Positions 15,756 through 64,000 of a stretch of DNA of 64,000 nt are shown in pieces. Position numbers and translations under genes: made by a program. Origin of the DNA: Heliophilum fasciatum (GTDB lineage: Bacteria; Bacillota; Desulfitobacteriia; Heliobacteriales; Heliobacteriaceae); the NCBI RefSeq assembly GCF_004341395.1, contig NZ_SLXT01000017.1, positions 1 through 64,000 on the forward strand, in the 5' to 3' direction. The notes under the pieces are model-generated. The model was not told the DNA's origin. It saw only the letters and a list, made by a program, of their open reading frames with translations, and ran no database searches. Each line of letters opens with the position of its first letter. Within the stretch, counting starts at the first letter, position 1.

Positions 15756-16859
15756 ATGAAAGAATTTTGGCAACAAAGCCCTTTGGCCGATATTGTGGAG
15801 AAGGTACAAGCCGGTGAACGGCTCTCACGGGAAGATGGCCTGCGCTTATTTCAGTCGCATGATCTTTTGACGATTGGCTATATGGCCGATATGGTTCGGC
15901 GCCGCAAAAACGGTGACACGGTGTACTTCATCAATAATCGCCATATCAACCCGACGAATATCTGTGTAAAACGCTGTGCCCTTTGCGCTTTTGGTGTTGA
16001 TGCTGATGATCCGCGGGCCTATAACCTGTCGCTTGATGAGGTGGAAGCCAAGGTCCGAGAATCGATGGACAGCAACCCCAGCGAGATCCATATCGTCGGT
16101 GGACTCCATCGGGATGTGCCTTTCTCCTATCAAATCGAAATGCTGGAACGAGTGCGCCGCGTGATGCCCGATACGCACATTCAAGCTTTTACTGCCGTGG
16201 AGATCGATTATTTCGCCGAACAATCCGGCTTGACGGTGCGCGAAGTGCTGGAAAAGCTGATCGCAGCCGGCTTAGGCTCCTTGCCGGGCGGCGGTGCGGA
16301 AATCTTCAGTGAACGCGTTCGCGCCAAGATTGCTAAGGATAAGATCCCCGGCAGCCGCTGGTTGGAAATCCATGGTGAGGCTCATCGCTTAGGGTTAAAA
16401 ACCAATGCGACCATGCTCTACGGTCACATGGAGACGCTGGAAGAACGAGTGGATCACATGATCCGGCTGCGTGAACAACAAGATAAAACCGGCGGCTTTC
16501 AAACCTTTATCCCCCTGGCTTTTCATCCGAAAAACACGGCGCTGGAAGGGGAAGGCGTGCGGACAACGGGCTTTGAAGATCTCAAATGCTTAGCCGTGGG
16601 CCGTTTGATGCTCGATAACTTCGATCACATCAAGGCCTTCTGGATCATGATCGGGCCGAAACTGGCGCAAGTATCGCTGGCTTTTGGCGTCGATGATATT
16701 GACGGCACCGTTGTCGAAGAAAAGATCTTTAATGCGGCCGGTTCGGAAAACGGTCAGGCGATGACGCGTAAAGAATTAACAGCTATGATCCGGGCTGCAG
16801 GTCGTGTTCCCGTGGAACGGGACACCCTGTACCGGGTGATTCGTACCTTTGAGGCGTAA
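15756..16859 (+). CDS. mqnE: Aminofutalosine synthase (radical SAM)
   Basis: Joins 3-[(1-carboxyvinyl)oxy]benzoate to SAM-derived adenosyl to form aminofutalosine. 367 residues starting with ATG 15756. The radical SAM cluster motif is CVKRCALC (CxxxCxxC, about residues 69-76), preceded by HINPTNIC. Other family pieces are HIVGGLH, SLPGGGAEIF and LAFHPKNT. MqnC at 17836 is a paralogue with the same layout. A terminator follows, but mqnA starts only 28 bases beyond it. Confidence 0.93.
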   Translation: MKEFWQQSPLADIVEKVQAGERLSREDGLRLFQSHDLLTIGYMADMVRRRKNGDTVYFINNRHINPTNICVKRCALCAFGVDADDPRAYNLSLDEVEAKVRESMDSNPSEIHIVGGLHRDVPFSYQIEMLERVRRVMPDTHIQAFTAVEIDYFAEQSGLTVREVLEKLIAAGLGSLPGGGAEIFSERVRAKIAKDKIPGSRWLEIHGEAHRLGLKTNATMLYGHMETLEERVDHMIRLREQQDKTGGFQTFIPLAFHPKNTALEGEGVRTTGFEDLKCLAVGRLMLDNFDHIKAFWIMIGPKLAQVSLAFGVDDIDGTVVEEKIFNAAGSENGQAMTRKELTAMIRAAGRVPVERDTLYRVIRTFEA

Positions 16860-58678: not shown

Positions 58679-58882
58679 GTGCAGAAGAAAAGCTTGATTT
58701 ATCTCGATTATCAATCGACAACACCTTGCGATCCTCGGGTTGTTGAGATAATGATGCCATATTTCTATCAGGTCTATGGTAATCCATCTAGTGGTTATCA
58801 TCTGCTTGGCCGTGATGCGCAAAAGGCGGTTAACCAAGCGCGTGAGCAGGTAGCTAGTCTGATTGGCGCTCGATCCGACTAG
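58679..58882 (+). pseudogene. Cysteine desulfurase (NifS/IscS-like) N-terminal fragment
   Basis: 67 codons from GTG 58679, with AAGGAAG 7-8 bases upstream. The sequence (IYLDYQSTTPCDPRVVE, NPSSGYHLLGRDAQKAV, ASLIGARSD) matches the first 65 or so residues of class V PLP-dependent cysteine desulfurases, which are normally about 380-400 long. It stops at TAG 58880-58882, before the PLP-binding lysine and catalytic cysteine regions; the downstream sequence shows no continuation in any frame. A truncated relic, starting 21 bases after the tRNA end. Confidence 0.85.
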
Positions 58883-62326: not shown

Positions 62327-62354
62327 TTGACATAGTTTTAACTCCTGCTATAAT
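62327..62354 (+). promoter_or_regulatory. Strong promoter of the ABC importer operon
   Basis: Perfect TTGACA (62327-62332), 16-base spacer, perfect TATAAT (62349-62354) with extended TGC. The predicted start is at about 62361. Confidence 0.88.
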
Positions 62355-62360
62355 AAACTA

Positions 62361-62521
62361 AACACATCGGAAATAATGAATTTGCCGACCAGAAACACTG
62401 GAGGTTACGGAATGATTGAGCACCTACTCACCGAGAAATCATCATTCCCGCTTCTTTCACTCACAGCGTACCCCACCGATGTGCACATTCTTGTTTACTT
62501 ATGAAAGGGGAACCTCCAACT
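62361..62521 (+). ncRNA. Structured leader RNA of unknown class before the ABC importer genes
   Basis: The predicted transcript starts at the edge of a closing stem, CACATCGG (62363-62370) with CCGATGTG (62476-62483). Inside it are CCAG/CTGG (62389-62401; loop AAACA, enclosed by CCG/CGG) and GGAATGAT (62409-62416) with ATCATTCC (62441-62448). A closing stem around two hairpins forms a three-way junction like many riboswitches. About 38 bases separate the closing stem from the ATG, including the ribosome site AAAGGGG (62504-62510). The sequence does not fit the TPP, SAM-I, FMN, cobalamin, T-box or guanidine-I patterns as I know them. Confidence 0.55.
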
Positions 62522-63526
62522 ATGAAAAACATCCGGCTACTTACGTTCTTGATCCTTATGACCGTTGTCTCAACGTTCATGATCGGTTGCGGTAGCAATG
62601 CATCCAAAAGCAACGAAACCAACGCACCGGCAACGGAAGGTAACGCGAAGGAAGTACGTCTCGCTTATGTACCACTACCTCATTACTCCCCATTGCTAAT
62701 TGCCAAACAAAATGGCTGGATCGAAGAAAGTCTCAAGCCGTTGAACGTCAACGTAAAGTGGAACTCTTTCTCCATTGGTCCGCTCGTCAGTGAATCCTTT
62801 GCTGCTGGGGGCCAAGACGTTGGCGTAATGGGCGATTTTCCGGCTATCATTGGTCGTTCTGCCAATGTGGATACACGCATCGTCGGTATTACTTCAACCT
62901 CACCGCAGTCTCTGGCACTGGTAGTGCCCAAAAACTCTTCGATCACCTCTCCTGCCGATCTGAAAGGCAAAAAAGTAGCGACGACCAAAGGTTCCTATGG
63001 ACAATACCTCTTATCACAACTGCTGGAGAGCAAGGGCTTGACGGTCAATGACATTAAATTCATTCACATGTCGATGGACGATGTGAAATCAGCGCTGCTA
63101 ACCGGCGACATTGATGCCGGTGTAATCTGGGATCCACTGCTGACGATCCTTGAAGATCAAAATGCCATTCGCATCATTGCTGACGGAACCGGTTATTATC
63201 AAGGCATCGCTGTCATGATTGCTGATCACAAGTTTGCTGCAGCCAATCCGAAAGTAGTAACGGCGATCCTCGCTGCCTATGAACGGGGCGCCCAATTTAT
63301 CAAGAGTAACCCCACGGAAGCCAAAGATCTTGTAGCCAAAGAAGTCAAAATTCCCCCGGCGCAATTAGCGAAAATCATCGATCGTTTTAATTATCAGCCT
63401 GCGATCACGCCGGAAATCACCGAAGAGCTGAAGAAAAGCGAAGCTTTTATGGCCAAAAACCAGATCATCAAGAACAGTGTTGATATTGATAAATTTGTCG
63501 ATAAATCATACTTCCTACTCCAATAG
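62522..63526 (+). CDS. ABC transporter substrate-binding lipoprotein (SsuA/TauA/NrtA-like)
   Basis: 334 residues from ATG 62522 (AAAGGGG 11 bases upstream; ATG 62501 would add seven). A lipoprotein signal with lipobox MIGC (Cys about 23) leads into an Asn/Ser-rich tether. The rest is a periplasmic-binding fold of the NMT1/SsuA group: VRLAYVPLPHYSPLLIAKQNGW, AGGQDVGVMGDFPAI, LKGKKVATTKGSYGQYLL (each shown as a short piece). The group carries aliphatic sulfonates, taurine, nitrate or pyrimidine precursors, so the ligand is not decided by sequence. The permease follows 38 bases on. Confidence 0.9.
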   Translation: MKNIRLLTFLILMTVVSTFMIGCGSNASKSNETNAPATEGNAKEVRLAYVPLPHYSPLLIAKQNGWIEESLKPLNVNVKWNSFSIGPLVSESFAAGGQDVGVMGDFPAIIGRSANVDTRIVGITSTSPQSLALVVPKNSSITSPADLKGKKVATTKGSYGQYLLSQLLESKGLTVNDIKFIHMSMDDVKSALLTGDIDAGVIWDPLLTILEDQNAIRIIADGTGYYQGIAVMIADHKFAAANPKVVTAILAAYERGAQFIKSNPTEAKDLVAKEVKIPPAQLAKIIDRFNYQPAITPEITEELKKSEAFMAKNQIIKNSVDIDKFVDKSYFLLQ

Positions 63527-63564
63527 AAGTAGCGTCGAGCGCCATACATAATGGAGTGAAACTG

Positions 63565-64000
63565 ATGAGCTTGCATCTTGGAAAAGGCACCGCACCAAAA
63601 GTACGTCGATATCCCAAGAACAACCAAACATTTACCTGGCAACAATTTATCTTGCCTATCGTGCTGCTCATTATCTGGCAGATGTTTTTTGAACTTGGTC
63701 TGATCCGTTCCATTGTCCTGCCGCCACCAAGCACCGTGATGAAGACGATTGGTGAGCTTTTACAAAATGGGCAGTTGTTCAAACACTTAGGATTTAGTCT
63801 TATCCGCGTGCTCGAAGGGTTCAGCCTGGCTGTTCTCTTCGGCCTCACCTTAGGGATCGCCATGGGCCTCTTTCGTAACGTCTATCTTTGGCTGGATATG
63901 CTTATCCAAGTTCTTCGGCCGATTCCGCCGATTGCCTGGATACCCTTAGCCATCTTGTGGTTTGGTATCGATGAAATGTCGAAGATATTCATTATCTTTT
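63565..64000 (+). CDS. ABC transporter permease (SsuC/TauC-like), 3' end beyond window
   Basis: The frame from ATG 63565 (GGAGTGA upstream) stays open to the window end; 145 codons are visible. A basic N-terminus is followed by a membrane helix (FILPIVLLIIWQMFF, about 27-41). The typical permease front part LPPPSTVMKTIGELL follows, then further helices (LAVLFGLTLGIAMGL) and PIPPIAWIPLAILWFG, the start of the EAA-type loop region of SsuC-family permeases. It should form the importer with the lipoprotein just upstream; the ATPase gene is presumably next, outside the window. Confidence 0.92.
   Translation, partial: MSLHLGKGTAPKVRRYPKNNQTFTWQQFILPIVLLIIWQMFFELGLIRSIVLPPPSTVMKTIGELLQNGQLFKHLGFSLIRVLEGFSLAVLFGLTLGIAMGLFRNVYLWLDMLIQVLRPIPPIAWIPLAILWFGIDEMSKIFIIF

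Follow-up and report, generated by a model that had tools for sequence, protein, structure and literature searches.

The leader RNA of an ABC importer operon in Heliophilum fasciatum carries a 28-nt hairpin that belongs to an RNA regulatory class absent from Rfam and found ahead of dozens of sulfur-scavenging genes in Firmicutes. The explanation that best accounts for it, and one we hold with good confidence, is that the hairpin is an antiterminator of a sulfur-starvation regulon and that the small protein DUF2292 (PF10055, YezD) is its putative reader. Computation yields the covariation of the hairpin, its overlap with terminators, the sulfur regulon, and the genomic link to DUF2292. The leader occupies positions 62327-62521 of the 64,000-nt stretch of DNA that was analysed, here called the window.

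A covarying hairpin outside Rfam

A sequence-only reading had described the leader as a three-way junction of no recognised class. The second part of that description holds: covariance models give no Rfam match at gathering score in the window, and at a permissive E<=10 the leader draws chance matches only. The stems of the junction exist too, but the conserved unit is the hairpin listed in Table 1, which that reading did not single out. The conservation and covariation in relatives that it proposed to test are seen for this hairpin; neither P1 nor the remaining leader stems were seen in other copies of the element. By DNA similarity, the whole leader has no homologue in its own genome or family, and only the core recurs. 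One leader match, to locus L002, was spurious, falling within a coding gene. Likewise, the suggestion of a new regulatory RNA before an importer survives insofar as the RNA lies outside every Rfam class; instead of a large aptamer, it is a small hairpin whose formation normally precludes that of a terminator.

Table 1. Features of the leader and of the genes that follow it (window positions)
Feature	Position	Strand	Basis or remark
-35 box TTGACA	62327-62332	+	sequence reading
-10 box TATAAT with TG extension	62349-62354	+	putative transcript start ~62361
P1 5' arm CACATCGG (closing stem of the earlier reading)	62363-62370	+	forms in hairpin state
Sulfur-regulon hairpin element	62381-62408	+	model R1 34.6 bits, E 4e-7 over 432 kb; R2 30.4 bits; scores not independent, this copy being a training sequence of the models
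Element core GCC-GA-CCAG-AAACA-CTGG-A-GGT	62384-62405	+	first found by recurrence in relatives
Conserved GA of 2x1 internal loop	62387-62388	+	column frequencies
Hairpin 3' side TGGAGGTT	62399-62406	+	alternative pairing with 62511-62518
Invariant A opposite GA	62402	+	frequency 1.00 in both alignments
Long hairpin GGAATGAT...ATCATTCC	62409-62448	+	shared by the two alternative folds; other copies do not show it
P1 3' arm CCGATGTG	62476-62483	+	folding
Shine-Dalgarno-like AAAGGGG	62504-62510	+	sequence
AACCTCCA, alternative partner of 62399-62406	62511-62518	+	adjoins ribosome-binding site
SsuA-family substrate-binding lipoprotein	62522-63526	+	TIGR01728 above cut-off; PF09084
SsuC/TauC-like permease	63556-64000, continuing beyond window	+	family search

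The hairpin has the consensus NNNGCY-GA-4 bp-loop-4 bp-A-GGCNNN, with an apical loop mostly of 4-5 nt (AAANA in the form given for the window hairpin). Conservation is high at the GA of the internal loop and at the A across from it. In the stems, changes are compensated, and the apical loop differs in length and sequence among copies. The 30-nt core was found again in two heliobacterial relatives, where a strong terminator follows immediately 3'. Scans of the organism's own class used the core first, then a covariance model, R1, built from 24 copies; a later model, R2, was built from 84. With R1 at E<=10, a threshold at which the weakest matches may be chance, the H. fasciatum genome has ~20 copies, two relatives have 18 and 19, and one genome from another family has 18. 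Across the phylum, covariance-model matches occur in ~60 of 399 sampled genomes. Most non-heliobacterial matches from a two-mismatch pattern scan of the class were dropped as coding or lacking the anatomy, and model matches in L110, L112, L116, L117, L120, and L121 were dropped on inspection as coding or lacking a terminator.

Among 79 distinct sequences, nine of the ten base pairs compensate, and the covariation score is 0.441, versus 0.271+-0.012 for shuffles and at most 0.227 when slid. An independent set of 86 sequences, mostly from Bacillales, with some from other Firmicute families, and unused in the models, scores 0.431, versus 0.221+-0.013 for shuffles and at most 0.180 when slid. Model-fitted alignments are biased toward the structure of the model; the first alignment, A1, which is gapless and not model-fitted, agrees with this outcome.

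The element matches no Rfam 15 family in the window, at loci L010 and L011, in 20 loci, or in 10 Bacillales loci. The Rfam matches in the Bacillales loci are SAM and lysine riboswitches only, and they lie elsewhere in the loci than the element. Our literature search, confined largely to freely accessible papers, returned no description of the class except for one possible glimpse. Specifically, the text of Naville and Gautheret 2010 reports, for bacilli, an attenuator without a name upstream of both a sulfonate ABC operon and an unknown gene, and this attenuator may represent a few members of the class; that text gives no hairpin class, regulon, or protein partner (PMC2965389).

Terminator overlap and the window leader

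A terminator of -10 kcal/mol or lower accompanies 117 of 127 element copies, compared with 27 of 381 shuffles; this stricter count replaces an initial criterion so lax that half of the shuffles passed. In 104 of those 117 copies, the first base of the terminator 5' arm is 8 or 9 nt into the element. Hairpin and terminator thus compete for AGGCC and are mutually exclusive, an arrangement typical of antiterminators.

The window copy is arranged differently. The promoter claimed for it is as near-ideal as described, with a 16-nt spacer, a TG 5' of the -10 box, and 12 of 12 consensus matches. Also present as originally drawn are the closing stem of 8 bp (62363-62370/62476-62483) and a further stem at 62409-62416/62441-62448. 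The leader folds better than its dinucleotide shuffles (z -2.8; 2 of 200 shuffles are as good). In the free minimum-energy fold (-39.5 kcal/mol), TGGAGGTT is paired with AACCTCCA. That fold differs from the one drawn earlier, which contains P1, is almost isoenergetic at -39.0 kcal/mol, and allows P1 and the hairpin at 62384-62405 to form together. P1 and the other window stems are compatible with the hairpin state and may stabilise the hairpin in this copy.

The terminator test applied to the 127 copies finds no intrinsic terminator at the window copy. Its competing partner is the long-range pairing with AACCTCCA at the ribosome-binding site. Given this pairing and the missing terminator, we infer translational control here, and the modelled folds tentatively suggest that the window copy is a translational variant. 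The translational step is weak because the two folds are predicted to expose the Shine-Dalgarno sequence to almost the same extent (0.37 vs 0.40).

A sulfur-acquisition regulon

The gene after the leader had been called an SsuA-like importer component, and family search agrees (TIGR01728 SsuA_fam, 209.8 bits; cut-off 163.5). The window element thus precedes a sulfur-acquisition gene. Beyond the window, the permease gene is followed by genes for an ABC ATPase and then a C_GCAxxG_C_C protein (L019). Farther upstream in the window, at 58679-58882, a 67-aa ORF resembles an N-terminal fragment of a NifS/IscS-type cysteine desulfurase and is apparently truncated.

Elsewhere in the H. fasciatum genome, the element precedes ABC genes (TauC/SsuC, SaoA/TauB-like genes, and a MetN-like ATPase, in addition to the SsuA operon) and genes for enzymes, namely MtaA/MtbA-like methyltransferases, a NifH-like protein followed by CysK, and nitrogenase-like proteins. 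Further targets are a protein that reads as an adenylylsulfate kinase, a CobW-like GTPase, hydrolases, and a CoA ligase; an O-acetylhomoserine sulfhydrylase lies in the same cluster as element targets. PAPS reductase, CysK, and a PIG-L-like protein are among the targets in relatives. In Bacillales, the targets are annotated PAPS reductase-Sat-CysC operons, sulfate-binding proteins, TauE/SafE-like permeases, and sulfonate ABC genes, where names given without a family search are readings of the sequence. Overall, the targets are mostly sulfur-acquisition genes: Ssu/Tau ABC, Sbp, CysH/CysC/CysK, MetN, and Mar-type nitrogenase-like enzymes. For H. fasciatum, the literature describes several NifDK homologues that are divergent, as well as a methylthio-alkane reductase that serves sulfur assimilation (PMC9147875).

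About nine element copies lie in one dense organosulfur cluster of the H. fasciatum genome (L122 and L123; contig 7, 105000-145157). This cluster encodes several nitrogenase-like D/K pairs, one NifH-like and one NifB-like protein, taurine-type ABC systems, CysK, and O-acetylhomoserine sulfhydrylase. Two of its elements face away from each other within a single divergent intergenic region (L122 16184-16210 on the minus strand and 16372-16399 on the plus strand), and the minus-strand copy precedes a gene for a 94-aa protein with no Pfam match. In a genome of another family of the same class (G078, contig 1, 1.1-2.9 Mb), clusters of sulfur and methyltransferase genes hold ~18 element candidates, whereas the majority of its relatives lack any; this pattern suggests horizontal spread or loss.

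DUF2292 as the candidate reader

DUF2292 genes adjoin elements in H. fasciatum and in related genomes. The H. fasciatum protein (G000:C7:105968-106258) contains two DUF2292 domains. In heliobacteria of several genera, DUF2292 occurs as two fused domains or as two neighbouring genes with differing C-termini (L122 930-1310, L149, L150, L160/L161); in Bacillales, it is mostly single. Within the organism's class, strong DUF2292 matches are found almost only in genomes with elements, and a genome of the same family, G008, has neither. Genome scans used alignment A5, the initial DUF2292 alignment being too diverse. In the 399-genome sample, 40 genomes have both element and DUF2292, 8 the element only, 27 DUF2292 only, and 324 neither (Fisher p 5e-29, a value that overstates independence, as the genomes are related). 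Outside the class, the corresponding counts are 34, 8, 26, and 315. Among the eight element-only genomes, three owe their status to matches inside ORFs, and two with real elements are 61% and 85% complete. The true exceptions, at least 93% complete with an element and no clear DUF2292, are G158, G282, and G352, the last of which has a weak DUF2292-like ORF.

When named genomes were scanned for DUF2292 on its own, 79 Bacillales loci were recovered, and in 76 of them the element starts at the yezD stop codon or a short distance past it. Eight of ten such loci checked have a SAM riboswitch ahead of yezD. In several Bacillales loci, the TGA stop of yezD is within the element (GC-TGA-C..., for example at L198 4143-4170). 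Thus, yezD translation ends inside the hairpin there, an arrangement that may be autoregulatory. In Bacillus methanolicus, the arrangement has been described as (SAM)-cysH-sat-cysC (PMC4342826), a description that names neither the small gene nor the hairpin present there (L248).

From this evidence, DUF2292/YezD is probably the protein that throws the hairpin switch. A counterpoint is that DUF2292 could be a mere member of the sulfur regulon, and 27 genomes of the 399 carry it with no detected element. Five large genomes of one family (G103, G146, G295, G406, and G445; 6.4-7.3 Mb) have strong DUF2292 matches and no element at E<=1e-3, which could reflect either a diverged target or another role. 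Searches returned neither a solved structure nor a fold match for DUF2292; among solved RNA-binding folds, none matches its AF2 model, a helix-strand-strand arrangement (pLDDT 83).

The leader had also been taken for a ligand-regulated one. It is a regulatory RNA; the close association with DUF2292, however, favours a protein-controlled antiterminator over a metabolite-binding riboswitch. We regard as unlikely the alternative that the hairpin is a minimal riboswitch for a small sulfur metabolite, such as O-acetylserine or cysteine, with DUF2292 merely a regulated gene. A sulfur-centred regulon, a conserved GA/A internal loop together with an A-rich loop, and the few genomes with elements and no detectable DUF2292 would all suit a riboswitch. 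Nonetheless, 28 nt with one internal loop would make a very small aptamer, the apical loop is variable, DUF2292 co-occurs more tightly than scattered regulon membership would lead one to expect, and the element sits directly behind yezD in nearly all of the Bacillales loci.

Less probable still is another trans-acting reader: an ANTAR protein, a BglG/LicT-type CAT_RBD protein, or a further RNA-binding protein. The layout is theirs. The RAT targets of LicT, SacY, and BglG are small imperfect hairpins with one or more internal loops that overlap the 5' arm of an intrinsic terminator and are read by a regulatory protein. The element has the same build, but differs in sequence and internal loop, precedes sulfur rather than sugar genes, and occurs ~20 times in heliobacterial genomes, whereas no CAT_RBD was found in any heliobacterial genome tested, that of H. 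fasciatum included. The target RNA of ANTAR proteins is two hairpins, whereas the element is a single one with loops mostly of 4-5 nt. ANTAR antitermination (EutV/NasR/AmiR) employs a protein-dependent antiterminator that overlaps a terminator (PMC3369931). ANTAR proteins are present in 12 of 14 element genomes tested, but G342 and G427, with four elements each, lack them, and neither ANTAR nor CAT_RBD genes were ever seen adjoining elements, as DUF2292 genes do. By analogy, the element system would work like LicT/RAT or ANTAR while being a member of neither. Finally, we give very little credence to a constitutive attenuator or intergenic processing site without regulation: in Bacillales the element does lie between two co-directional genes, but a plain terminator would be expected neither to carry an exclusive alternative hairpin whose internal loop is conserved and whose pairs show compensatory changes, nor to belong to a functionally coherent regulon.

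Two sulfur-related systems invite comparison. The SAM-I riboswitch (S-box) controls sulfur genes by attenuation, as the element would, and in Bacillales it is found directly ahead of yezD and the element. The element, in contrast, is far smaller, has no Rfam match, and lies 3' of the small gene that the S-box controls. OscA is homologous to DUF2292/YezD, and the H. fasciatum protein gives E 9e-11 with NF033785, "sulfur starvation response protein OscA", a match below the model cut-off. In Pseudomonas corrugata, oscA shares a transcript with a sulfate-binding-protein gene and is reported to take part in the sulfur-starvation response and Cr(VI) resistance (PMC3596284, PMC2996968); the literature found gives OscA neither a function nor an RNA target.

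Under the DUF2292-controlled antiterminator that we favour, the 3' half of the hairpin (AGGCC...) would, in the factor-free state, pair downstream, usually as an intrinsic terminator, and the gene would be off. In the window copy, the downstream pairing would be the helix adjoining the ribosome-binding site, with the same outcome. On sulfur starvation, DUF2292/YezD would bind the hairpin, with the conserved GA/A internal loop as the probable contact site, and would prevent the alternative structure, turning sulfur-acquisition genes on; both the binding and this ON polarity we infer. In Bacillales, the signal would enter through the SAM riboswitch before yezD, such that DUF2292 is made when SAM or sulfur is low. 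We think it likely, if slightly less so than the favoured explanation as a whole, that DUF2292/YezD/OscA constitutes a new family of ~50-residue RNA-binding antiterminators. With the hairpin, the family would form a sulfur-starvation regulon in heliobacteria, other Firmicutes, and Bacillales, acting as the second stage of a cascade under the SAM riboswitch in Bacillales and in a translational variant in the window.

If this is correct, DUF2292/YezD, and possibly OscA, would gain a function: a small protein tied to sulfur starvation since 2009, for which the literature found gives no mechanism. An RNA class not in Rfam would, moreover, apparently control core sulfur assimilation in common bacilli (the cysH operon and sulfate and sulfonate uptake), and the same class would apparently control the organosulfur clusters of heliobacteria.
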